Positions 1,824 to 59,057 of a stretch of DNA of 64,000 bases are shown piece after piece. The position numbers were made by a program, and so were the translations under genes. A model generated the notes under the pieces. It was not told where the DNA came from. It saw only the letters and a program-made list of their open reading frames with translations, and did no database searches. Each line of letters begins with the position of its first letter. The first letter of the stretch is position 1. Origin of the DNA: Gramella sp. Hel_I_59 (GTDB taxonomy: Bacteria; Bacteroidota; Bacteroidia; Flavobacteriales; Flavobacteriaceae); the NCBI RefSeq assembly GCF_006714895.1, contig NZ_VFME01000001.1:434001-498000 (forward strand), written 5' to 3'.

Positions 1824-2879
1824 TTAATCCTCTTCCTTATCCATTGAATTCCAACCTCTGGCGATTAGTGGTAATTTTTGATTTGCACGGGTAACCAGGT
1901 GCATGCCCTCATTTTCTTCAGTCATATGACCAATCACAGTTAAATTCGGGTTTCCTTTGATCTTATCGTAATCTTCCTGCGCAATGGTAAATAGCAATTC
2001 ATAATCTTCACCACCGCTTAATGCGATCGTAGTGCTATCGATATTGAATTCCTCACAAACTGAAATCACAGCAGGATCCAGCGGAATTTTCTCTTCGTAT
2101 AGATTGGCGCCTACTTTAGAGCTTTTGCAGATATGGATGATCTCAGAAGACAAACCGTCACTGATATCGATCATGGAACTTGGTTTAACACCAAGATCGC
2201 TTAGAAGCTTAGCAATATCTTTTCGGGCTTCAGGTTTTAATTGTCTTTCAATAAGATAGGTATACTGCTCAAGATCTGGCTGGGAATTTGGATTCGCTTT
2301 AAAAACTTCTTTCTCACGCTCCAGTACCTGAAGACCCATATAGGCAGCTCCAAGATCACCGGTTACCACGAGAAGATCGTTAGGTTTAGCTCCATCTCTG
2401 TAAGCAATATTCTCCTTTTTAGCGTGACCAATTGCTGTAACGCTGATCATAAAACCAGAAGTAGAAGAAGTAGTGTCCCCACCAATAACATCGACATTAT
2501 AAACTTTCGAGGCTAATTGTACCCCGGCATAAAATTCTTCCAGCGCTTCTACCGGAAACCTGTTCGACACAGCGATAGAAACTGTTACCTGGCTTGCGGT
2601 AGCGTTCATTGCATAGATATCAGATAAATTAACCATCAGCGCTTTGTAACCCAAATGTTTTAGTGGCATGTAAGCAAGATCAAAATGAACACCTTCGATC
2701 AAAAGATCTGTGCTTATTACAGTTTCTTCATCATCAAATTTCAGAACAGCAGCATCATCTCCAATAGCTTTGATCGTAGAATCAAGCTTCGGGCTAAAAT
2801 GCTTTGTTAAGTGTTCGATCAAACCGAATTCACCTAATTCTGAAAGGTTCGTCTTACTTTCCTGACTATTATCAAACAT
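1824..2879 (-). CDS. thiL: thiamine-monophosphate kinase
   Basis: ATP-dependent phosphorylation of thiamine phosphate to thiamine diphosphate, the last step of cofactor synthesis. The protein has the AIR-synthase/PurM-like fold: GEFGLIEHL at the N-terminus, IGDDAAVL (metal and nucleotide binding), STDLLIEGVHFD, VNLSDIYAMNA, VIGGDTTSS, and a C-terminal DISDGLSSE plus SGGEDYELLF. The frame is open up to 2909, but the ATG at 2879 is preferred: it starts just before the conserved region and leaves a -7-like box (2899-2906) outside the gene. About 351 residues, typical for the family. No other thiamine gene or TPP riboswitch is seen beside it. Confidence 0.95.
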   Translation of the reverse strand: MFDNSQESKTNLSELGEFGLIEHLTKHFSPKLDSTIKAIGDDAAVLKFDDEETVISTDLLIEGVHFDLAYMPLKHLGYKALMVNLSDIYAMNATASQVTVSIAVSNRFPVEALEEFYAGVQLASKVYNVDVIGGDTTSSTSGFMISVTAIGHAKKENIAYRDGAKPNDLLVVTGDLGAAYMGLQVLEREKEVFKANPNSQPDLEQYTYLIERQLKPEARKDIAKLLSDLGVKPSSMIDISDGLSSEIIHICKSSKVGANLYEEKIPLDPAVISVCEEFNIDSTTIALSGGEDYELLFTIAQEDYDKIKGNPNLTVIGHMTEENEGMHLVTRANQKLPLIARGWNSMDKEED

Positions 2880-2898
2880 GCAATGAAAATTTAGACTG

Positions 2899-2906
2899 CA
2901 AAAATA
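2899..2906 (-). promoter_or_regulatory. candidate -7 box of thiL
   Basis: On the minus strand this reads TATTTTTG, an exact match to the flavobacterial TAnnTTTG -7 element, about 20 bases before the preferred ATG. No TTG is found at the usual 17-23 base spacing, so support is partial. Confidence 0.4.
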
Positions 2907-3057
2907 CAAGAATAAAATGCAATTCAGAAGAAAGCATGAAAAGCTTCTGAAGCCGCAGAAATATTGCCTTGGTGACTACTGGAATTTCGATCGAAGACTT
3001 CTATGATTCAATTCTTAAAACATATTCCTAGTCTATGGTAAACCGCTTGTTTTATAG

Positions 3058-3065
3058 TATATTTG
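3058..3065 (+). promoter_or_regulatory. candidate -7 box of the suf operon
   Basis: TATATTTG is an exact TAnnTTTG match 31 bases before the first suf gene. The nearest upstream TTG (3047) is too close for a normal -33 element, so only half of the promoter is convincing. Confidence 0.5.
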
Positions 3066-3095
3066 CACTCAATTTAGAATTAATCTTTATAGCTT

Positions 3096-3425
3096 ATGAT
3101 TAAAGTTAGCGAAGAGGCTAAAAAGAAAATTTCCGTCCTCATGACCGAAGAGGGTTTTAATGCTACGGCAGACTATGTTCGGGTTGGAGTGAAGAGCGGA
3201 GGATGTTCTGGTTTGTCTTATGAACTTACGTTCGACAATAGCCAGGCTGAAGGCGATAAGGTCTTCGAAGATAACGATGTAAAGATCGTTGTTGACAAAC
3301 GCAGTGTGCTTTATCTGGCTGGAACTATTTTGGAATATTCCGGAGGATTAAATGGAAAAGGATTTGTTTTTAACAACCCGAACGCACAAAGAACCTGTGG
3401 ATGCGGTGAAAGTTTTTCACTGTAA
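3096..3425 (+). CDS. sufA: A-type Fe-S carrier, HesB/IscA/SufA family
   Basis: A 109-residue A-type carrier that receives nascent Fe-S clusters and passes them to apoproteins. It is a single HesB domain of normal length. The three conserved cluster-binding Cys are visible: one in KSGGCSGLSY (about residue 37) and two in CGCGESF near the C-terminus. It opens the SUF operon 51 bases before sufB, which favours the SufA role over IscA; erpA-type function is the alternative. Cytoplasmic. Confidence 0.92.
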   Translation: MIKVSEEAKKKISVLMTEEGFNATADYVRVGVKSGGCSGLSYELTFDNSQAEGDKVFEDNDVKIVVDKRSVLYLAGTILEYSGGLNGKGFVFNNPNAQRTCGCGESFSL

Positions 3426-3476
3426 AAATTATGTATCGGTTACTACCGATCTTTAATTTAATTAGAATTACGAAGA

Positions 3477-4922
3477 ATGGCATATACTGAAGACGATTTA
3501 AAGAAAGAGCTCGAAACCAAGGAATACGAATATGGATTTTATACAGATATAGAATCTGATACTTTTCCTGTGGGCTTGAACGAAGATATCGTAAGAGCAA
3601 TATCCAAGAAAAAGGAAGAGCCGGAGTGGATGACGCAATGGCGTTTGGAAGCTTACCGGGAATGGGAGAAAATGGAAGAGCCGGACTGGGCTAATGTAAA
3701 TTATCCAAAACCAGATTTCCAGGCGATCTCTTATTACTCTGCTCCAAATAAGAAACCGAAGTACGATAGTATCGATGATGTGGATCCGGAATTACTGGAT
3801 ACTTTTAAAAGACTGGGGATTTCTCTTGATGAGCAAAAGAAATTAGCCGGTGTTGCAGTAGATGTGGTAATGGATTCAGTTTCTGTAACTACAACTTTTA
3901 AAAAGACGCTTGCTGAAAAAGGGATTATTTTCTGTTCTATTTCTGAAGCGATCAAAGAACACCCAGAACTGGTTAAAAAATATCTTGGAACCGTGGTTCC
4001 GCAGAAAGATAATTTCTACGCTGCTCTTAACTCGGCAGTTTTTAGTGATGGTTCTTTCTGTTATATTCCGAAAGGCGTTCGATGCCCAATGGAACTATCA
4101 ACATATTTTAGAATAAACCAGGCAGGAACCGGTCAGTTTGAGAGAACACTGGTTGTTGCAGATGAGAGCAGTTATGTAAGTTACCTGGAAGGTTGTACTG
4201 CTCCATCCCGTGATGAGAACCAGCTGCACGCAGCAGTTGTAGAGCTTATCGCTTTGGATGATGCTGAGATCAAATACAGTACGGTACAAAACTGGTTCCC
4301 TGGAAATAAAGAAGGAAAAGGTGGAGTTTTCAATTTTGTAACTAAACGTGGACTTTGCGAAAAAGGGGCGAAGATTTCCTGGACTCAGGTAGAGACAGGA
4401 TCTGCAGTTACCTGGAAATATCCAAGCTGTATCCTGAAAGGTGATAATTCGGTAGGAGAATTTTACTCAATTGCCGTGACCAACAACTTTCAGCAGGCAG
4501 ATACCGGAACTAAGATGATTCATCTTGGTAAGAATACTAAGAGTACGATCATCTCAAAAGGTATTTCTGCAGGAAAATCTCAGAACTCTTATCGTGGTCT
4601 GGTACAGATCAACGGTAGAGCTGAAAATGCGCGTAACTTTTCACAATGTGATTCCCTTCTGATGGGGAATGAGTGTGGAGCTCATACCTTCCCTTATATT
4701 GAAGTTAAAAATAAATCTGCACAGGTGGAGCACGAGGCAACAACCAGTAAGATCGGTGAAGACCAGATCTTCTATTGTAACCAGCGTGGTATAGATACTG
4801 AAAAAGCGATCGCATTGATCGTAAATGGTTTCAGTAAAGAAGTATTGAACAAACTTCCTATGGAATTTGCAGTAGAAGCTCAGAAATTATTAGAGATCTC
4901 GCTGGAAGGTTCAGTAGGATAA
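3477..4922 (+). CDS. sufB: Fe-S cluster assembly scaffold protein SufB
   Basis: SufB is the scaffold subunit of the SufBC2D complex on which the Fe-S cluster is built. The 481-residue length matches the family. Recognisable segments are the N-terminal YGFYTDIES, the beta-helix core containing [11 protein letters not shown] and YLEGCTAPS, and the C-terminal [15 protein letters not shown] and GIDTEKA motifs typical of SufB rather than SufD. The Cys in EGCTAP and the acidic and Cys residues of the core are candidate cluster ligands. It sits between the A-type carrier and a lipoprotein gene, in the same direction as sufCDS. Confidence 0.97.
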
Positions 4923-4946
4923 TTGATTCTGAAGACAACTTGATCG

Positions 4947-5327
4947 ATGAGAAGGTTTTTTGAAATAATGATCGTGGCTATTTTGCTCGTATCCTGTCAG
5001 GATGATGAACAAAAGGAACTTAATCCCGAACCTGTAACTGCTAAAGTTCAGGATAGTCTGGAAGTGCTTCAGGGAGACTATGTTTATGTAGCTGATGCTG
5101 CTGTACTACGAGGGGAGAATTTCGTGTATGGTGTTAAACAGGATTCCATTGCAATGCTACTTTCAGAAAAAGTAAGCGATTTGAAATCTGATGATTTTGA
5201 AATGATCCCGGTTCGTGTTAGAGCTAAGATCACGCCAAATCCCACACTGAAAGGCTGGGACGAGATCATCGAAATTAGGGAGATCCTGGAAATTTCAGGA
5301 GCCAGTGTTTCAGATTCAATAGAATAA
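4947..5327 (+). CDS. hypothetical lipoprotein inside the suf operon
   Basis: A 126-residue protein with a lipoprotein leader (MRRFFEIMIVAILLVSC, Cys 17) followed by an acidic spacer, so it should be anchored to an envelope membrane. The mature part is short, with the segment VPVRVRAKITPNP-like reading as VRVRAKI...LKGWDEIIEI, which suggests a small beta-rich domain. No family is recognised. It lies 24 bases after sufB and 52 before sufC in the same orientation, with no terminator seen, so it is probably cotranscribed with cytosolic Fe-S machinery, which is unexpected for an exported protein. Confidence 0.75.
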   Translation: MRRFFEIMIVAILLVSCQDDEQKELNPEPVTAKVQDSLEVLQGDYVYVADAAVLRGENFVYGVKQDSIAMLLSEKVSDLKSDDFEMIPVRVRAKITPNPTLKGWDEIIEIREILEISGASVSDSIE

Positions 5328-5379
5328 ATAAAAATAGAATATCAAACAGTCTGCATAGGCAGATTCAGAAATAACAGAC

Positions 5380-6129
5380 ATGCTTAAAGTAAAGAATTTA
5401 CACGCCAGTATTGAAGATAAAGAGATCCTGAAAGGAATTAACCTGGAAATCAAACCAGGAGAGGTTCATGCGATCATGGGGCCAAACGGTTCCGGGAAAA
5501 GTACCCTTTCTTCAGTAATCGCAGGAAGAGAAGAGTATGAAATGACTGAAGGTGAAATGATGTTCGAAGGGGAAGACCTGAACGAACTTGATCCTGAGGA
5601 AAGAGCGCACAAAGGAGTGTTCTTATCATTTCAATACCCTGTGGAAATTCCTGGTGTTTCTGTAACCAATTTTATTAAAACAGCGATCAACGCTCAAAGA
5701 AAGGCACACGGGCAACCGGATATGCCTGCGAATGATATGCTGAAAATGATTCGTGAGAAATCTGAAATGCTGGAAATCGATAGAAAATTCCTTTCTAGAT
5801 CATTGAACCAAGGTTTCTCAGGAGGAGAGAAGAAACGTAACGAGATCTTCCAGATGGCGATGCTTGAACCAAAATTATCTATTCTTGATGAAACAGATAG
5901 TGGACTTGATATCGATGCACTAAAGATCGTTGCAAATGGAGTGAATAAACTTCGCTCTAAGGATAACGCGGTATTGCTAATTACGCACTACCAGAGATTG
6001 CTTGATTATATCGTACCAGATTACGTGCATGTATTGGTAGACGGAAAGATCGTAAAGTCTGGAGGAAAAGAACTTGCTTACGAACTGGAAGAAAGAGGAT
6101 ACGATTGGGTAAAGCAGGAAACAGTTTAA
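5380..6129 (+). CDS. sufC: Fe-S assembly ATPase SufC
   Basis: The ABC-type ATPase of the SufBC2D scaffold; it binds SufB and SufD and drives conformational change. The 249 residues contain Walker A GPNGSGKST, the Q-loop in FLSFQYPVEIPG, the ABC signature GFSGGEKKR, and a Walker B ILDETDSGLDID, where the DETDSGLD form is characteristic of SufC. There are no membrane segments. It stands 46 bases before sufD. Confidence 0.97.
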   Translation: MLKVKNLHASIEDKEILKGINLEIKPGEVHAIMGPNGSGKSTLSSVIAGREEYEMTEGEMMFEGEDLNELDPEERAHKGVFLSFQYPVEIPGVSVTNFIKTAINAQRKAHGQPDMPANDMLKMIREKSEMLEIDRKFLSRSLNQGFSGGEKKRNEIFQMAMLEPKLSILDETDSGLDIDALKIVANGVNKLRSKDNAVLLITHYQRLLDYIVPDYVHVLVDGKIVKSGGKELAYELEERGYDWVKQETV

Positions 6130-6175
6130 TACTCGAGTCGAGAAATTGAATTGTTGAACTAGAAATTAGAATGTA

Positions 6176-7489
6176 ATGGAATTGAAAGATAAATTGGTCT
6201 CGTCATTTTTAGCCTTTGAGGAAAATCTGGACCCGAACGAGAATCTGGATACTTTAAGAAACGAAGCGATCAAAAATTTTGAAACGCTTGGTTTTCCTGG
6301 TAGAAAAGACGAAGACTGGAAGTATACCTCACTAAATTCGGTTTTAAAACACGATTATAGTGTTTTTCCGAAGAAAGAAGACGCGATCGAGTATCGTGAT
6401 ATCAAGAAATACCTCATACATGATATAGATACTTATGATCTGGTTTTTATCGATGGGATCTATTCTTCTCATCTATCGCAAACCACTCATGATAAGATCG
6501 ATGTTTGTTTGATGTCTGCTGCGCTTAACAAGGACAAGTACAGTGCGGTAATTGAAAATTATTACAATAAAGTTGCTCCAAAAACCAGCCTGAATTCGCT
6601 GAATACAGCATTTGCCAGGGAAGGAGCTTTTATACATATTCACAAGAATACTCAGGCAGATAAGCCTATCCAGATCATTAATTTTGCTACTGGAAATGAG
6701 TCTGCTCTAATGTTACAGCCTAGAAATCTGGTTGTTGTGGATGAGAATTCTCATGTGCAGATCATTGAAAGACACCAAAGTCTTACAGATCACCCGGTGC
6801 TTACGAACTCTGTTACCGAGATCTTTGCAGATAAAAGAGCGATCGTAGATTACTATAAAATCCAAAATGATAAAGCTTCAGCTTCATTAATTGATAATAC
6901 GTTTATCAATCAAAAATCTGAAAGCCACGTTTCTGTGCATACATTCTCGTTTGGAGGGAAGCTAACCAGAAATAATTTGAACTTCTACCAGAATGGAGAA
7001 CGTATAGATTCTACCATGAAAGGAGTTACCATTATTGAAGACAAGCAGCACGTAGATCACAACACACTGGTTCATCATATCGAGCCTAATTGTGAAAGTC
7101 ACCAGGATTACAAAGGAATTTTTGATGACAAATCTGTTGGGGTATTCAATGGTAAAGTTGTTGTAGAGAAGGAAGCACAGAAGACAAATGCTTACCAGTC
7201 TAACAACAATATCCTCGCAAGTGACAAGGCGACGATCAACTCGAAGCCACAGTTAGAGATCTTTGCAGATGATGTACGTTGCAGCCACGGGTGTACGATC
7301 GGGCAGCTTGATGCGGAGGCTTTATTCTATTTGCAATCCAGAGGTATTCCGCGTAAGGAAGCCAGAGGATTACTTATGTACGCATTCGCAAATAACGTAT
7401 TGGAAAGTGTAAAAATTCCGGAAGTGAAGAAGCGTATTAATAAGCTAATTGCGAGCAAACTTGAAGTCGATCTAGGCTTCAATCTATAA
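6176..7489 (+). CDS. sufD: Fe-S assembly protein SufD
   Basis: SufD is the partner of SufB in the scaffold complex and helps iron entry. It has 437 residues. The N-terminal helical part includes FPGRKDEDWKYTSL, typical of SufD, followed by the beta-helix core and a C-terminal domain with DDVRCSHGCTIGQLD and EALFYLQSRGI. The sequence is clearly divergent from sufB in the same operon, as is usual. It lies between sufC and sufS with short gaps (46 and 20 bases), consistent with one transcript. Confidence 0.96.
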   Translation: MELKDKLVSSFLAFEENLDPNENLDTLRNEAIKNFETLGFPGRKDEDWKYTSLNSVLKHDYSVFPKKEDAIEYRDIKKYLIHDIDTYDLVFIDGIYSSHLSQTTHDKIDVCLMSAALNKDKYSAVIENYYNKVAPKTSLNSLNTAFAREGAFIHIHKNTQADKPIQIINFATGNESALMLQPRNLVVVDENSHVQIIERHQSLTDHPVLTNSVTEIFADKRAIVDYYKIQNDKASASLIDNTFINQKSESHVSVHTFSFGGKLTRNNLNFYQNGERIDSTMKGVTIIEDKQHVDHNTLVHHIEPNCESHQDYKGIFDDKSVGVFNGKVVVEKEAQKTNAYQSNNNILASDKATINSKPQLEIFADDVRCSHGCTIGQLDAEALFYLQSRGIPRKEARGLLMYAFANNVLESVKIPEVKKRINKLIASKLEVDLGFNL

Positions 7490-7509
7490 ATCAATAAAAC
7501 TTTAAGAGG

Positions 7510-8748
7510 ATGAGTCAGTCAACTCAGGTCAGAAAAATAGATGTTGAAACGATCCGTCAGGATTTTCCAATTCTTGGACGTGAGGTGAATGGCTATCCAT
7601 TGGTTTATTTCGATAATGCCGCGACTGCGCAAACACCTAAACAGGTGATGAATGCGATCGTGGATTATTATTCGAATTATAATGCCAATATTCATCGTGG
7701 AGTTCATGCGCTTTCTCAGGAAGCGACAGATAACTATGAGCAGGCCAGGATTAAAATTCAGCAACATTTCAATGCTGAACATGCTCACGAGATCATTATG
7801 ACCTCGGGTACAACACATGGGATCAACCTTGTGGCGAATGGTTTTTCTTCTTTACTGAAGTCTGGAGATGAAATTCTGGTTTCAGCAATGGAGCATCATT
7901 CGAATATTGTGCCCTGGCAAATGCTGGCGGAAAAGACCGGTGCTAAGCTGAAGGTCATCCCGATGAACGAAAGAGGGGAACTAATCCTTGACGAATATAG
8001 GAACCTGATCACTGATCGCACAAAACTTGTCTTTGTAAATCATGTTTCCAATGCCCTTGGAACGGTGAATCCAATTAAAGAGATTATTGACATCGCTCAT
8101 GAAGCTGGTGCTGCTGTTTTAATAGACGGAGCTCAGGCATCGCCGCACATTAAAGCTGATGTTCAGGAGCTTGATATTGATTTTTATGTAGTTTCAGCTC
8201 ATAAGATGTGTGGCCCTACTGGTGTTGGAATGTTATATGGTAAACAGGAGTGGCTGGAAAAATTACCTCCTTATCAGGGTGGTGGTGAAATGATCGCTAC
8301 AGTAAGTTTTGAAAAAACGACCTATGCCGGTCTGCCTCACAAATTTGAAGCGGGAACACCTAACATTTGTGGCGGAATAGCTTTTGGAGCGGCCCTCGAT
8401 TATATGAACTCTATTGGCTTTGAAGAGATCGCTTCTTACGAAGATGAATTGCTTCAATATGCAACAAGCAGGCTGAAGGAGATCCAGGGAATGAAGATCT
8501 ATGGGGAAGCTGCCGAGAAGACGGCCGTGATTAGTTTCAACGTAGAGGGATTACATCCATACGATATTGGAACGCTATTAGATAAAATGGGAATTGCTGT
8601 TAGAACAGGGCATCATTGTGCACAACCGGTAATGGATTTCTTTAAGATTCCCGGAACAGTAAGAGCATCCTTTGCATTTTACAATACGAAAGAAGAGATC
8701 GATACATTTATGGAAGGGTTAAAAAAGGCTTTGATGATGCTGCAGTAA
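7510..8748 (+). CDS. sufS: cysteine desulfurase SufS
   Basis: A PLP-dependent class V aminotransferase-fold enzyme that takes sulfur from L-cysteine as an enzyme persulfide and passes it to SufE. The 412 residues show the PLP lysine in SAHKMCGPTG (Lys 232), the preceding DGAQASPH, and the catalytic Cys in RTGHHCAQP (Cys 370). This arrangement is the SufS/CsdA (group II) type, not IscS. It ends the first SUF block and is followed by a clear terminator at 8784. Confidence 0.97.
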   Translation: MSQSTQVRKIDVETIRQDFPILGREVNGYPLVYFDNAATAQTPKQVMNAIVDYYSNYNANIHRGVHALSQEATDNYEQARIKIQQHFNAEHAHEIIMTSGTTHGINLVANGFSSLLKSGDEILVSAMEHHSNIVPWQMLAEKTGAKLKVIPMNERGELILDEYRNLITDRTKLVFVNHVSNALGTVNPIKEIIDIAHEAGAAVLIDGAQASPHIKADVQELDIDFYVVSAHKMCGPTGVGMLYGKQEWLEKLPPYQGGGEMIATVSFEKTTYAGLPHKFEAGTPNICGGIAFGAALDYMNSIGFEEIASYEDELLQYATSRLKEIQGMKIYGEAAEKTAVISFNVEGLHPYDIGTLLDKMGIAVRTGHHCAQPVMDFFKIPGTVRASFAFYNTKEEIDTFMEGLKKALMMLQ

Positions 8749-54071: not shown

Positions 54072-54112
54072 AATAGGAATAAATCCATTAAATAGGAATT
54101 ATTCCAAAATTA
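54072..54112 (-). promoter_or_regulatory. dinB promoter with tandem operator-like repeats
   Basis: Two near-identical 16-base elements lie 19 bases apart (54072-54087 and 54091-54106; 14 of 16 match). The second contains the palindrome GGAATTATTCC (54095-54105). It touches a minus-strand -7 box TAATTTTG (54112-54105). Two sites one start-site apart suggest cooperative repression of dinB-dnaE2, as in SOS-type control. No regulator gene lies next to it. Confidence 0.5.
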
Positions 54113-54171: not shown

Positions 54172-54200
54172 TTGATTGTTGAATTAATACTGTAATTTTA
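54172..54200 (+). promoter_or_regulatory. candidate promoter of the Nudix-helicase-HNH cassette
   Basis: TTG (54172-54174), 18-base spacer, TAATTTTA (54193-54200), one mismatch to consensus. Transcription would begin near 54207, within the first codons of the longest frame and before the second TTG (54226). Confidence 0.3.
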
Positions 54201-54201
54201 A

Positions 54202-54615
54202 TTGTCAAATAATCGAAAGTTCAGTTTGATTCAAGTTACATGCGCCTTGATAGAGGATAATCATAGAGTATTATGCGCGCAACGCAGTAAGAATATGAGC
54301 CATCCTTTGAAATGGGAATTTCCAGGTGGGAAACTTGAAGCTGGAGAAACACTGGAGAATTGTCTCAGGAGAGAAATTAAAGAAGAACTGGGATTAGATA
54401 TTAAAGTTATACAACGTCTCCCTTCCAATATCCACAAATATTCTGATAACAAGATTATAGAACTTATTCCATTTCGCTGTTCCCTACAAACTTCAGAAAT
54501 TATTTTAAAAGAGCACTCTAAAATAGAATGGTCAACCGTATTCCAATTAGAAAAATTTGATTGGGCGGAAGCAGATATTCCAATTGTTAAACATTACATA
54601 CAAACTTTTAGATGA
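54202..54615 (+). CDS. Nudix (deoxy)nucleoside triphosphate pyrophosphohydrolase, MutT-like
   Basis: A Nudix hydrolase of about 130-137 residues. The Nudix box is GGKLEAGETLENCLRREIKE (then ELGL), matching the GX5EX7REUXEEXGU pattern except that the REUXEE is REIKEE as expected. The N-terminal VTCALIEDNHRVLCAQR is MutT-like. No ATG is available: the frame opens at a TTG (54202) right after a stop codon, and a second TTG (54226) gives the family-typical MIQVTCALI. Substrate probably an oxidised or other (d)NTP. Its stop overlaps the helicase start by 4 bases. Confidence 0.85.
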   Translation: MSNNRKFSLIQVTCALIEDNHRVLCAQRSKNMSHPLKWEFPGGKLEAGETLENCLRREIKEELGLDIKVIQRLPSNIHKYSDNKIIELIPFRCSLQTSEIILKEHSKIEWSTVFQLEKFDWAEADIPIVKHYIQTFR

Positions 54616-57600
54616 GTTTTGAAACGGGTCTTTACGAGCAGCTAATTAATAAGCTTATAACAAATAAGTTAGAATCACTTGACTGCCAAGAATTTCATAT
54701 TAGTAAAACAGCGTTAGACAAAGAGGAAGCATCCCAATATCTAAGTCTTTATTTGTCAGAAACAATTCGTTTTGCTTTAAATGAAATTAAAGACAAGGAT
54801 AGACCCTTGAAGCAAATTGAGATATCTAATAAGATCATAAGTTTATTGGCTGCAGAGCTTAAAAATTTAGATTTAACCAACAATCTTATAGAAAATGAAG
54901 GAAAGATACTGGAGGCCGTATTTTCAAAATCTAATTTTCCTTATTCCAACCTAAAAGATAGACTCAAAGAAATTACACCCTATACTCGCCTAAGTCAAAG
55001 TGAACTTTTCACAGGAAATAATACTGGAATATCTTTAGAAAGTGAGATTAAAAAAGAAATTCTTTCGGCTGATTCTATATGTTGGTTAGTATCATTTATT
55101 AAATACTCAGGAATTCGAATTTTTAAAAAGGAACTTGAAGAGTTCACGCATAGTGGTAAAAAATTAAAAATTATCACAACGTCCTACATGGGTGCTACAG
55201 ATGCGAAAGCCGTAGAATATTTATCTTCTTTACCTAATACTGAAATCAAAGTATCCTATAATGTAGAGCATGAACGACTACATGCGAAGGCATACTTATT
55301 CCTGAGAAATTCAGGTTTTCATACAGGTTATATAGGCTCATCTAATCTCTCGAGATCTGCCTTAACCAACGGTCTAGAATGGAACTTGAAAGTGACAACC
55401 CAAGAGATCTCTCATATTATAGATAAGTTTCAGAAGACATTTGATACTTACTGGGAAGATCCAGAATTCGAAAATTATAATAACGGTAGAGATAGAGAGA
55501 AACTAATTAGTTCCTTAAAAAGACAGAGTTCTTACGGAACAAATCAAATCACTACATTTTTCGATCTAAAACCTTATCCCTATCAGGAAGAAATATTAGC
55601 CAAGCTCGATTCTGAAAGAATTATTCATAAAAGAAATAAGAACCTGGTGGTGGCTGCAACAGGAACCGGTAAAACAGTCATTTCTGCTTTCGATTTTAAA
55701 CGATTTAGAAATTCAAATCCAAATACGAAATTTCTATTTGTTGCGCACCGAAAAGAAATTCTAGAGCAAGCCCAAAAGACGTTTCAACATGTTTTACGAG
55801 ACTCTAATTTTGGGGAATTGTGGGTAGGAGGCTATGAACCCGAAAAGTATGATCAGCTCTTTGCTTCCGTTCAAACTTTAAACAGTCGATTAAAGAACTT
55901 AGAGATAGATGAGAGCTTCTTCGATTATATTGTAGTAGATGAAGTACATCATATCAAAGCCGATAGTTATAGACCAATATTAAGAAGATTCAAACCTGAA
56001 ATACTTTTAGGCCTTACCGCTACACCTGAAAGAATGGATGGTGGTGATATTACTGAAGATTTTCATCATAAAATTGCAGCTGAAATTCGGCTTCCTGAAG
56101 CATTAAATAGAAAGTTATTATCTCCATTCCAATATTTCGCACTTTCCGATTCTATTGATTTAACGAATGTAAGTTGGAAAAACGGCAGATACGAGATTAA
56201 AGAATTAACTAAGCTCTATACTGAAAATGATAGGCGGGTTGGGGATATCCTCAAAAATTGTGATGAATACCTTACAGATGTTCATGATGTGCAAGCTTTA
56301 GGTTTTTGTGTGAGTCAGGACCATGCAAAGTATATGGCTGATAAGTTTACAATTGCTGGGTTGAAAGCAGATTACCTAATAAGTGGGAATAGCTCCAATA
56401 GGGCAGTTTTGAAAGATAGACTCACTAAAAAGGAAATTAATTACTTATTCGTCGTTGATATTTTTAATGAGGGTGTTGATATTCCAGAAATTGATACGGT
56501 CCTATTTTTGCGTCCTACCGAAAGTCTAACGATATTTTTGCAGCAATTAGGAAGAGGACTTCGCTTAGCCGAGAATAAAGATTGTCTTACAGTTTTAGAT
56601 TTTGTAGGAAATGCAAAACCAGAATATGATTTTGAACATAAATTCAGAGCATTAATTGGGAGAACACATACTTCTATTATCAAAGAAATCGAAGATGAAT
56701 TCCCGCATTTGCCACTAGGCTGCTCGATTATTTTAGAGCGGAAAGCTAAAGATATAATACTAACCAATATTAGAGAAGCTACGGAATTTAGAAGACCTGA
56801 GCTTCTTAGAAAAATTCAAAACTTCAAACATCATTCTTCAAGAATTCTTACTATAGATAATTTCTTAGATTTCCATCATCTTGAAATACAGCAAATTTAT
56901 AAAAAAGGAAGTTGGAAAAGACTTTGTGCAGATGCCGGTATAATCCAGCAATTTGAAGAACCTAATGAAAAAGAAATATCAAATTTTATAAGTAGCAGGT
57001 TGATACATTGCAATTCAGTAAGTTACCTCACTTTTATAAAGCAACTGTATAATAATAGTTTTGAAGTTTCTAACGATTCTGAAATAGATCATTTGAAAAC
57101 TTTGATGCTCCATTATGACATATGGCAAAAATCTGGTCCAGACCTCAATTTCGACGACTTACAGTCAAGCTTGAATCAAATCAAGACAAATCCTGTAATG
57201 ATTCAGGAAATCGTGGAAGTTGTTGATTATTGTCTAGATAGGATAGATTTTATTGAGAAACCTATTAATCTTGGATTCCCATTCCCATTAAAAATTCATA
57301 GTCGTTATAATCGTAACCAAATTCTTGTAGCCATTAGAAGGCATAAGTTTGACAAGGCTAAACCAAGTAGGGAAGGAGCATCTTATGAAAAATCTATAAA
57401 TACTGAGGCATTGTTTGTCACCCTTAAAAAGTCTGATAAAGATTATTCACCTACTACTATGTATGAGGATTATGCATTAAATAAAAATCTATTTCACTGG
57501 CAGACTCAAAATAGTGCATCTCCAAATACACCAAAAGGGCAAGCGTATATTCAAAGTGAAAAAAACGTCCTATTATTTGTGAGAGAACAAGCTAAGGATG

Positions 57601-57749
57601 AGTATGGATTTACGATGGGTTATGTGTTTTTGGGAGAGGCAATATTTCAAAGTCATTCAGGTGAGAAACCCATGAATATTGAATGGAAATTAGAGGAGCC
57701 AATGCCACCGTTTATTTTAAAAGAGAGTCAGAAATTAGCTGTTGGATGA
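54612..57749 (+). CDS. PLD-like / DEAD-box helicase with C-terminal DUF3427
   Basis: A 1045-residue multidomain protein. About residues 110-290: phospholipase-D-like region with HAKAYLF (His 224, Lys 226) and GSSNLSRSA (about 241); the Asp of the HKD motif is Leu. About 320-690: superfamily 2 helicase with Walker A ATGTGKT (about 350), DEVHH (about 443), LGLTATPERMDG and QQLGRGLRL (about 644). The rest is DUF3427, with SRYNRNQILVAI, LKKSDKDYSPTTMY and NKNLFHWQTQNSASP. This architecture is known in defence-type neighbourhoods, but its activity is not established. Overlaps the Nudix stop (ATGA) and AT-rich compared with flanks. Confidence 0.9.
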   Translation: MSFETGLYEQLINKLITNKLESLDCQEFHISKTALDKEEASQYLSLYLSETIRFALNEIKDKDRPLKQIEISNKIISLLAAELKNLDLTNNLIENEGKILEAVFSKSNFPYSNLKDRLKEITPYTRLSQSELFTGNNTGISLESEIKKEILSADSICWLVSFIKYSGIRIFKKELEEFTHSGKKLKIITTSYMGATDAKAVEYLSSLPNTEIKVSYNVEHERLHAKAYLFLRNSGFHTGYIGSSNLSRSALTNGLEWNLKVTTQEISHIIDKFQKTFDTYWEDPEFENYNNGRDREKLISSLKRQSSYGTNQITTFFDLKPYPYQEEILAKLDSERIIHKRNKNLVVAATGTGKTVISAFDFKRFRNSNPNTKFLFVAHRKEILEQAQKTFQHVLRDSNFGELWVGGYEPEKYDQLFASVQTLNSRLKNLEIDESFFDYIVVDEVHHIKADSYRPILRRFKPEILLGLTATPERMDGGDITEDFHHKIAAEIRLPEALNRKLLSPFQYFALSDSIDLTNVSWKNGRYEIKELTKLYTENDRRVGDILKNCDEYLTDVHDVQALGFCVSQDHAKYMADKFTIAGLKADYLISGNSSNRAVLKDRLTKKEINYLFVVDIFNEGVDIPEIDTVLFLRPTESLTIFLQQLGRGLRLAENKDCLTVLDFVGNAKPEYDFEHKFRALIGRTHTSIIKEIEDEFPHLPLGCSIILERKAKDIILTNIREATEFRRPELLRKIQNFKHHSSRILTIDNFLDFHHLEIQQIYKKGSWKRLCADAGIIQQFEEPNEKEISNFISSRLIHCNSVSYLTFIKQLYNNSFEVSNDSEIDHLKTLMLHYDIWQKSGPDLNFDDLQSSLNQIKTNPVMIQEIVEVVDYCLDRIDFIEKPINLGFPFPLKIHSRYNRNQILVAIRRHKFDKAKPSREGASYEKSINTEALFVTLKKSDKDYSPTTMYEDYALNKNLFHWQTQNSASPNTPKGQAYIQSEKNVLLFVREQAKDEYGFTMGYVFLGEAIFQSHSGEKPMNIEWKLEEPMPPFILKESQKLAVG

Positions 57750-57758
57750 ACTTGACTT

Positions 57759-58739
57759 ATGATTGAAGAATCTATTGCAAAATATTTAAATTACTTCAAG
57801 AAATTGAACCGCGGTTATTCTAAGAATCTTGGTCGTGCTCCGCATAAACCAATTTTACTGCTTTCAATTCTTCAATTGATTCAAGATGGAAGTATTGATT
57901 CCAATAAAATATTTATTACTCCAGAATTAATCTTAGCCTTCAAAAGAAATTGGAAACAACTTGTAGATACTGGTCACACTACTAATTTCTCTCTTCCCTT
58001 TTTTCATTTGAAATCTGAACCCTTTTGGTACTTAATTCCCAAAGCTGGTGGTAAAATTTCAGTTACAAAATCAAAAAGTATTAAAAGCTTCAAGTATCTA
58101 AAAGAGAATTTGGCTTATGCTGAGATTGACAGAGAGTTGTATGTTCTATTACAACATCCAATTTCAAAGACATTGTTTGAACAATTTTTATTGGATCAAT
58201 ATTTTGCTTCAACAAAAAATCAATATTCAGAAAAACAAAAAACCATTGAGGAAAGTTTTATCGAAAATTCTATTCTAAATGAATCATCTGAGATTTATCA
58301 GAATCAGATTTCCAGCTTAAGAGAACGCTTAGAAGAAGACGAATTCGAGGAGGAAATTTTCGTTCGGGGCGGGCTGTTCAAAAGAACAATACCAAAAATA
58401 TACGATTATACCTGTTGCATTTCTGGACTTAAGATTGAGACCAGTAATAATGTTCAAATGGTTGATGCCTGCCATATTTATCCATTCAGCCTTTCTAGTG
58501 ATGACACAGTTCCTAATGGTATAGCATTGTCTCCAACGATGCATAGAGCTTTTGATCGAGGGCTGATCACAATTAATTCAGATTATATAGTTCGAGTTTC
58601 ACCAATCGTAGATGATCAAAACTCAGAGTTTTCAATCACCCAATTCGATGGTAAACAAATTATGGTTCCAAGAGAAGAACGTTGGTTTCCATCTCTACAA
58701 TCGCTAAGGTGGCATAACAAAGAAGTCTTTCAACTATAA
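57759..58739 (+). CDS. HNH endonuclease with modified-DNA-binding-like N-terminus
   Basis: A 326-residue protein. The C-terminal half has an HNH_2 nuclease: CCISG (about 218), the first His in DACHIYPFS (about 238), and NGIALSPTMHRAFDRG with Asn (about 252) and last His (about 262). The N-terminal half contains GRAPHKPILLLSIL (residues 25-38); this motif is typical of HNH proteins annotated as phosphorothioate/modified-DNA-dependent restriction enzymes (ScoMcrA-like sulfur-binding domain), which is an inference. It starts 10 bases after the helicase gene in the same direction. Confidence 0.87.
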   Translation: MIEESIAKYLNYFKKLNRGYSKNLGRAPHKPILLLSILQLIQDGSIDSNKIFITPELILAFKRNWKQLVDTGHTTNFSLPFFHLKSEPFWYLIPKAGGKISVTKSKSIKSFKYLKENLAYAEIDRELYVLLQHPISKTLFEQFLLDQYFASTKNQYSEKQKTIEESFIENSILNESSEIYQNQISSLRERLEEDEFEEEIFVRGGLFKRTIPKIYDYTCCISGLKIETSNNVQMVDACHIYPFSLSSDDTVPNGIALSPTMHRAFDRGLITINSDYIVRVSPIVDDQNSEFSITQFDGKQIMVPREERWFPSLQSLRWHNKEVFQL

Positions 58740-58823
58740 CAACCGATATTTCGTAAAAATTTGATCGAGATTATAATCAATCTATTTTTTTCGTAACTTA
58801 ATAATTCATTAATACTCAGGATT

Positions 58824-59057
58824 ATGAAAAGTTCTTCAGGAAAACGCGGACTCATAAAAAAATACGCTACAGATTTTATCTTTTCTGAAAAAACCAGGTT
58901 TGTTCTGGATGGCACCGGTTTTAGCAATTCTTCAGAAGAACCTGGATCAAAGATTATAAAATTCAGATTTGATAATTCAGACTCAGATAAAGCGACCAAA
59001 CCCGTCTTTCGTTGTATCTATAAAATGATGAAAAAATTTAATCTATCCTTAAATTAG
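58824..59057 (+). CDS. small basic hypothetical protein
   Basis: A 77-residue protein, MKSSSGKRGLIKKYATDF..., rich in Lys, Arg, Ser and Phe with no signal or membrane segment. No family recognised. The competing frame on the minus strand (58730-58999) is a less likely reading. It lies 84 bases after the HNH gene; whether it belongs to that cassette is unclear, but its composition is closer to the host's. Confidence 0.5.
   Translation: MKSSSGKRGLIKKYATDFIFSEKTRFVLDGTGFSNSSEEPGSKIIKFRFDNSDSDKATKPVFRCIYKMMKKFNLSLN

Follow-up and report, generated by a model that had tools for sequence, protein, structure and literature searches.

Gene content and composition of the locus

The subject of this work is a three-gene locus of Gramella sp. 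Hel_I_59, located in a stretch of 64,000 nucleotides (contig NZ_VFME01000001.1, positions 434,001 to 498,000 of the forward strand) that is referred to throughout as the window, and whose coordinates are used here; the host genome comprises a single contig of 3.44 Mb. Three codirectional open reading frames (ORFs) on the plus strand, at 54202-54615, 54612-57749 and 57759-58739, encode in order a Nudix protein, a large helicase resembling the type IV restriction enzyme SauUSI, and an HNH protein with a predicted sulfur-binding domain (SBD-HNH). The stop codon of the first gene and the start codon of the second overlap by 4 bases (ATGA), and 9 bases separate the second from the third. Taken together, the evidence described below points to a mobile restriction locus that is probably built on a recurrent Nudix-helicase core, comprising the following features.

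54226 to 54615, plus strand: Nudix hydrolase of the NudG/3GWY type, predicted 5-methyl/5-hydroxymethyl-dCTP pyrophosphatase (Pfam NUDIX, 2.4e-19; PDB 5x1x and 3gwy; Asp column)
54612 to 54615, plus strand: ATGA overlap of the Nudix stop and helicase start (sequence)
54612 to 57749, plus strand: predicted SauUSI-like type IV restriction enzyme, 1045 amino acids (Pfam, PADLOC mREase_IV, PDB 7clg, structure match, residues)
57759 to 58739, plus strand: SBD-HNH protein, 326 amino acids (PDB 8h0l, NF045808, Foldseek, invariant columns)
54176 to 58786, unstranded: variable segment flanked by dinB and by a small gene that is conserved (comparison with the empty-site genome G402)

The first ORF is open from the TTG at 54202, and comparison with homologues indicates that translation probably starts at the TTG at 54226 instead. 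Much of this layout had been recognised in a preliminary description made from the sequence alone: the codirectional arrangement, the 4-base overlap, the domain names (upheld by Pfam) and the divergence from a translesion-polymerase operon, which comprises dinB and a DnaE-like polymerase gene, all stand, while the gap before the HNH gene, given there as 10 bases, had to be corrected to 9. The low GC content that had been judged by eye was borne out also, with values of 0.345, 0.337 and 0.331 for the Nudix, helicase and HNH genes compared with a mean of 0.403 (standard deviation 0.016, minimum 0.365) for the 34 remaining ORFs of 200 amino acids or more in the window. GC content at third codon positions is 0.263-0.275 in the trio and 0.363 (standard deviation 0.039) elsewhere in the window, but this measure alone does not set the trio apart since another ORF falls to 0.232.

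The SauUSI-like helicase

Judged by its sequence, the second gene encodes a long SauUSI relative that is equipped with its own nuclease, motor and reader. It matches the PADLOC model mREase_IV at 4.7e-223, and residues 136-1012 are homologous to SauUSI as represented by PDB entry 7clg (1.4e-87). Pfam analysis placed a PLD nuclease (residues ~147-281), an SF2 ATPase motor (~319-670) and a C-terminal DUF3427 domain (849-1035) in a single chain and in the order found in SauUSI, beyond which the protein has an N-terminal extension of ~100 residues. The structure matched 7clg with 29% identity over 622 structurally aligned residues; this alignment (VIA-align) lists model residues 126-899 only, with the reader domain falling outside it, and residues of the reader were compared by sequence. 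The HxK residues of the PLD domain, H224 and K226, are present in 25/25 aligned sequences. The Walker A motif (ATGTGKT, 349-355) and the DExH motif (DEVHH) are conserved in both alignments A1 and A4, with T352 and H447 retained at 90% or more in A4. Within the DUF3427 reader, D953 and W963, the counterparts of the cytosine-reading Asp858 and the stacking Trp868 of SauUSI, were again found in all 25 sequences. SauUSI is described as cutting DNA at S5mCNGS sites that carry 5-methylcytosine (5mC) or 5-hydroxymethylcytosine (5hmC) (PMC7913695), and by analogy the window helicase is predicted to mediate ATP-dependent cleavage of 5mC- or 5hmC-containing DNA.

The Nudix protein

The window Nudix protein (Pfam NUDIX, 2.4e-19) has as its leading PDB matches entry 5x1x (3.6e-29) and then 3gwy (6.2e-21), and shares ~40% identity with 3GWY and 31% with NudG. 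At the column of MutT Asn119, which we take to have a role in reading the base, an Asp is present in the window protein, NudG and 3GWY, where E. coli MutT has Asn; the NudG-type Asp is found also in 45/45 of the helicase-linked Nudix proteins described below. Scores against the NCBIfam models for pyrimidine (deoxy)NTP diphosphatase (NF007834, 86.7 bits against a cut-off of 156) and for MutT (69.9 bits) were both below threshold, and the protein is referred to here as being of NudG/3GWY type, rather than as NudG, because it lies far under the NudG equivalog cut-off.

The enzyme in 3GWY is B. fragilis Q5LBB1, for which the kcat/Km values reported are 4.8e6 with 5-Me-dCTP, 4.4e6 with 5-hydroxymethyl-dCTP, 6.7e6 with 5-Me-CTP and 8.5e4 with 5-OH-dCTP, canonical nucleoside triphosphates being said to be hydrolysed at much lower activity; the same source lists 5-methyl-dCTP and 2-OH-dATP as likely substrates of NudG (PMC5158307). 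By homology, the window Nudix protein is probably a 5-methyl-/5-hydroxymethyl-dCTP hydrolase. No close orthologue of the B. fragilis 3GWY gene was found in 395 class genomes, in which the best match was 57% identical.

Linkage of Nudix and helicase genes across genomes

The association between Nudix and helicase genes was examined in a phylum sample, in which 40 regions were fetched for 47 helicase places, and in a scan of named genomes covering the best 80 of 585 relatives. Upstream linkage was counted where the helicase had at least 800 amino acids and at least 450 nucleotides of upstream sequence, leaving 35 of the 40 and 76 of the 80 loci respectively. A Nudix gene immediately precedes the helicase, on the same strand, in 18/35 phylum-sample loci and 23/76 named-genome loci from these best 80, with 4-bp overlaps in 9 of the 18 and 15 of the 23. 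In Bacillota and viral-type contigs the Nudix gene may instead lie downstream, at a distance of 625 bases or less (L145, L153, L156, L321, L330, L397-L400). A FastTree phylogeny was prepared for 113 of 123 helicase loci, using the same lower limits and a ceiling of 1400 amino acids; 45 of its 113 rows have a linked Nudix gene (42 upstream, three downstream) and the state of linkage changes at least 17 times, indicating that the linkage is repeatedly lost or gained. When the neighbours of all 123 loci were sorted into families, Nudix was the commonest (45 loci), followed by genes assigned by eye as HipA-like (16) and SBD-HNH (11).

The association was evident also from the Nudix side. A helicase is adjacent, within 1.5-kb flanks, to 21 of 26 distinct loci encoding 3GWY-like Nudix proteins (E ≤1e-25, phylum and class samples; two of these loci, G026 and G163, are near-identical and from one genus), and to 8 of the 19 phylum-sample relatives that match 3GWY more weakly, the window Nudix included. 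For 45 pairs from the same locus, Nudix and helicase distances correlate with r 0.70, a value matched in 0/2000 permutations, with shared host ancestry contributing to the correlation. Searches with 3GWY also yielded three records in a plasmid collection (E 1e-15) and seven in a phage collection (E 1e-12); of these ten, nine were inspected and a helicase was adjacent in seven, counting as adjacent a record with a broken helicase (L395).

SauUSI itself has such a neighbour. A frame at 5383-8244 of L401, a contig filed under the name Staphylococcus phage SA 1306 Kay that is probably host DNA, aligns to 7clg over 953/953 residues with few differences, and a Nudix gene ends 1 base upstream of it. 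The product of this gene is near-identical to 5x1x (130/130 residues, 1.3e-83), an entry known here by sequence match and the best PDB match of the window Nudix. The two loci, that of the window and that of S. aureus, thus hold pairs composed of mutual relatives. A second S. aureus record has the same Nudix neighbour beside broken helicase frames.

Several individual loci have unusual arrangements. The 30-kb 'plasmid' record L395 (NZ_CP077890.1) carries two inverted Nudix copies with helicase pieces, and its appearance suggests a chromosomal assembly artefact. In an L. plantarum plasmid (L315, NZ_CP028230.1), positions 2493-7888 encode a Nudix protein, a SauUSI-like helicase, a 106-residue protein annotated as 'nucleotide pyrophosphohydrolase' and a second helicase. 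The 106-residue protein is MazG-like by eye, has no NCBIfam match, and may provide the array with a second nucleotide-cleaning enzyme of unrelated type; the arrangement was absent from the other loci compared. At 8122-8958 of L153 the downstream Nudix carries a fused C-terminal domain resembling a GNAT acetyltransferase by eye. Eleven of the 16 loci with HipA-like genes, as identified by eye, are Nudix-less members of L113-L155, a mostly gammaproteobacterial set of helicase loci. The idea that another partner replaces the Nudix protein in Pseudomonadota was set aside, as neighbour clustering gave just these HipA-like genes and scattered others.

The SBD-HNH protein

Residues 6-154 of the HNH protein match the sulfur-binding domain SBDHga1 (PDB 8h0l) at 1.8e-16, in keeping with the modified-DNA-reader-like N-terminus noted in the preliminary description. 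The structure model has a mean predicted local distance difference test score of 56.9, with a poor C-terminal half and a usable N-terminal part, and in a Foldseek search it matched 8h0l (3.6e-8), 7ccj and 5zmo, 8h0l being the sole match below 0.001; all three entries are of sulfur-binding domains with phosphorothioated DNA. The protein also matches the SBD-HNH family model NF045808 at 2.9e-30, although its 105.4 bits fall under the 180-bit cut-off. The sulfur pocket of ScoMcrA is described as comprising His116, Arg117 and Pro165 (PMC6224610). By reading of alignments, these residues correspond to H29, K30 and P80, the position of Arg117 being Lys in most homologues, and all three, together with HNH residues H239, N253 and H262, are invariant in 20/20 sequences. 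The protein is probably a phosphorothioate-dependent nuclease that is separate from the helicase.

The position of SBD-HNH genes relative to the helicase varies. They lie codirectionally downstream in the window, L076-L078 and L095, convergently in L040, L068 and L069, and upstream in L111 (61 bases) and L109 (1054 bases). SBD-HNH genes were found in 23 genomes of the phylum sample, in two of them in pieces; a helicase is present in 6 of these 23 genomes compared with 43/395 overall (one-sided p 0.029, with one genus supplying two of the six) and is adjacent in four. On the helicase tree, SBD-HNH occurs in the locus in 10/113 rows with at least six changes. SBD-HNH is interpreted as a second type IV nuclease stacked beside the Nudix-helicase core.

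The variable site and host context

The dinB flanks of 17 genus-mates were fetched and compared with the window. In G402, the DinB protein of which is 99.75% identical, homology breaks off after 54175 and picks up again at 58787, 226 other bases taking the place of the insert. G401 lacks 54198 to 57485, and the HNH gene and the last 82 helicase codons remain. At the same site, G399 and G397 carry the Nudix and helicase genes but no HNH gene, G405 has the trio at another place and inverted, and no trio gene was found in the fetched dinB-flank stretch of 13 of the 17 genus-mates (G402 and 12 others). Since the presence and absence of parts differs among genus-mates at one site, the locus is a variable or mobile insert with separable parts. 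The trio does recur: Christiangramia sediminis and two Salegentibacter species share its gene order, with a gap of 1-9 bases ahead of the HNH gene, making four genomes with the window, which indicates that more than chance is involved.

Two elements border the variable segment. AT-rich imperfect palindromes (TAGGAATTATTCC-like) are present at 54072-54110, upstream of dinB, and are retained in the empty-site genome; they may be an operator of the polymerase operon. At the right border is a 77-codon frame at 58824-59057 (plus strand), which has no NCBIfam match, overlaps a mechanically called minus-strand ORF at 58730-58999 and lies in DNA that is conserved in several genus-mates.

With regard to the host, no match to the C5-cytosine methyltransferase family PF00145 was found in its genome, a control search having given matches in 10/14 genomes. 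Three matches to PF01507 were found, all beside CysN-like or CysD-like genes; by position and sequence two are CysD-like and one CysH-like, and they look like sulfate assimilation genes. No obvious phosphorothioation gene was thus apparent, PF01507 being the sole family searched for this purpose. The lack of matches fits with carriage of both nucleases without self-damage, bearing in mind that searches for PF00145 and PF01507 do not cover every modification system.

Proposed function of the locus

The most probable interpretation is that of a mobile, stacked type IV restriction locus, assembled on a recurrent Nudix-helicase core, in which a given mark would be removed both as nucleotide and as DNA. 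The SauUSI-like enzyme would read a 5-substituted cytosine in incoming DNA with its putative SRA-type reader, translocate by means of the ATP motor and shred the DNA by means of the PLD nuclease that it contains. The Nudix enzyme, presumably coupled to it in translation, would convert the matching 5-methyl- or 5-hydroxymethyl-dCTP to the monophosphate, such that the same mark would be cleared at two levels, the nucleotide pool and the DNA. The pairing makes sense because SauUSI attacks in DNA the mark that 3GWY attacks as dCTP. The Nudix enzyme could feasibly keep the mark out of host DNA and so prevent self-cleavage, or starve phages that draw on a modified dCTP pool for their modified DNA, and either benefit, or both, may be what matters. 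SBD-HNH would constitute a second, separable type IV nuclease, directed against phosphorothioated DNA.

A number of observations weigh against this interpretation. Sixty-eight of the 113 helicase rows have no linked Nudix gene, including 29/29 from Pseudomonadota, and 11 of the 19 weaker 3GWY relatives of the phylum sample lack a helicase in their 1.5-kb flanks. Compensation in trans by a NudG-like Nudix found no support: among 37 of the 43 helicase genomes, with frames of at least 366 amino acids excluded as they were taken for MutY, such a gene was found in 4/19 without a linked gene and 1/18 with one (p 0.34; G048, which has no such match, was placed in the unlinked group without its neighbourhood being fetched). 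On these counts the Nudix protein is not an obligatory antidote. SauUSI is reported to be sufficient by itself, as one polypeptide, both in vitro and, in an E. coli clone, in vivo (PMC3874153), so that a Nudix partner is not needed for its restriction in that host; E. coli has a NudG of its own. The window Nudix protein is just ~40% identical to 3GWY, and its match to the PADLOC model PDC-S07 was dropped as evidence of defence, this model being unspecific in that it also matches E. coli MutT (6.3e-39) and NudG. Within the helicase, the SauUSI residue that contacts the methyl group, Tyr831, is replaced by Ala923 (the position is Val in 19/25 of the clade and Tyr in none of the 25), and Met829 is replaced by Glu921; because of these replacements the exact mark read by the window enzyme may differ from 5mC. 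Leu231 occupies the position of E126, the acidic residue in the H(x)K(x)4E motif published for SauUSI; in the SauUSI-like set A2 this position is likewise not acidic, being Lys or Arg in 10 of 11 members, and hence the residue does not define the wider family.

Some of these points would equally suit a generic, MutT-like antimutator Nudix that deals with oxidised nucleotides and is linked to an ordinary SauUSI-type helicase by travel in defence islands. The frequent absence of the Nudix gene and the reported activity of SauUSI alone (PMC3874153) are compatible with this, as is a MutT score (69.9 bits) not far below that for the pyrimidine model (86.7 bits), with neither at its cut-off. It is judged rather unlikely, however, as the linkage is specific and flexible in order, with genes overlapping or abutting when the Nudix is upstream and the reverse order in Bacillota and viral-type contigs; as the Nudix is the commonest neighbour family by some distance (45/123 loci, with 16 and 11 for the next two); and as the linked proteins have, without exception among 45, the NudG-type Asp in place of the MutT Asn. 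A Nudix acting on the attacker only, degrading phage hydroxymethyl-dCTP so that plain-cytosine DNA falls to other restriction systems, with no role in self-protection, is judged unlikely. Phages with hydroxymethylcytosine are described as incorporating it from a dCTP pool converted to hydroxymethyl-dCTP (PMC3874153), 3GWY is equally good on 5-hydroxymethyl- and 5-methyl-dCTP (PMC5158307), and the Nudix gene is optional. Conversely, less-modified phage DNA would evade the partner helicase, and the two genes would then partly undercut each other. This possibility overlaps with the starvation arm of the favoured two-level interpretation, and the likelihoods given to them are not exclusive.

The preliminary description envisaged a helicase that scans or remodels DNA, an HNH protein that cuts it and a Nudix that may edit nucleotides or control a signal. 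Taken as an obligate complex of all three proteins, with DNA handed from helicase to HNH nuclease and the process tuned by the Nudix, this model gains some credence from the conserved order in four genomes, the at least six changes by which SBD-HNH enters or leaves helicase loci on the tree (10/113 rows) and the excess of helicases in SBD-HNH genomes (6/23 against 43/395, p 0.029). The helicase nonetheless has its own nuclease, with the HxK residues intact in 25/25 sequences; the HNH gene is convergent with the helicase or precedes it in other loci, is missing at the site in two genomes that keep Nudix and helicase (G397, G399), and in a third (G401) remains where the Nudix gene and the bulk of the helicase are gone; and at E 1e-60 a helicase match is lacking in 17 of the 23 genomes with SBD-HNH. 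The trio as an obligate unit was therefore dropped, HNH being gained and lost independently, and the complex is considered improbable. Least probable is processing by the Nudix of a signal (ADP-ribose, or a cyclic or dinucleotide) that switches the nuclease, as in the NAD-linked conflict systems among which Nudix domains are listed (PMC7159879): no recognisable signal-maker family recurs beside the pair (families not being scanned individually), and similarity to NudG/MutT-type triphosphatases is well above that to ADP-ribose Nudix models.

The preliminary description is thus supported in part. Its restriction-like, mobile, defence-type module agrees with the mREase_IV match, the SauUSI homology and the variable site, the GC content departs from that of the other window ORFs, the genes do co-occur beyond this genome rather than forming a conserved housekeeping neighbourhood (13/17 genus-mates having no trio gene in their fetched dinB flanks), and editing of nucleotides by the Nudix protein is favoured by homology and narrowed to 5-substituted dCTP, while the division of labour between helicase and HNH fell away. 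What emerges is more specific, namely a long-form SauUSI with a nucleotide-level partner and an HNH protein of phosphorothioate type. More tentatively, and on balance doubtfully, SauUSI-type restriction could be at root a two-gene system, with the reader pocket of the long clade accommodating a 5-substituent that is different or bulkier and for which the Nudix of that clade is suited, and with Christiangramia and Salegentibacter adding a backbone (phosphorothioate) sensor.

The portions of the literature consulted treat SauUSI as a barrier to DNA uptake that consists of a single polypeptide. A Nudix beside such a helicase is noted in one published figure legend, the word 'pool' being absent from that text, and no functional proposal for the Nudix-SauUSI pairing was found in the open-licence literature searched, although one may exist elsewhere. 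If the interpretation favoured here is true, restriction of modified DNA and hygiene of the nucleotide pool would be one system, which would help to explain how such nucleases are safely carried, or how pressure is exerted on hydroxymethylcytosine phages, and would give 5-methyl-dCTP Nudix enzymes a likely biological role.

Comparison with known systems

The HNH protein resembles ScoMcrA, SprMcrA and the Hga SBD in its SBD fold match, its His-Lys and Pro pocket and its HNH triad. It differs from ScoMcrA in that no SRA domain was found by Pfam and in having, by alignment, Leu79 where ScoMcrA has Tyr164, and from the SBD-HNH family NF045808 in scoring 105 against a cut-off of 180 bits. The Nudix protein has in common with 3GWY and NudG the Nudix box, the base-column Asp and a similar AD.P motif at the C-terminus; it differs in sequence (~40% and 31% identity), in lying under the NudG equivalog cut-off and in that its activity is a predicted one. 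With respect to PADLOC, it matches PDC-S07, and the helicase matches the separate model mREase_IV. The helicase differs from SauUSI in its overall sequence (29% identity over 622 residues), in its ~100 extra N-terminal residues and in the presence of Ala923, Glu921 and Leu231. Conversely, it has the same single-chain domain order, with the PLD His and Lys, the Asp and the stacking Trp all retained, and SauUSI is likewise encoded beside a Nudix gene.

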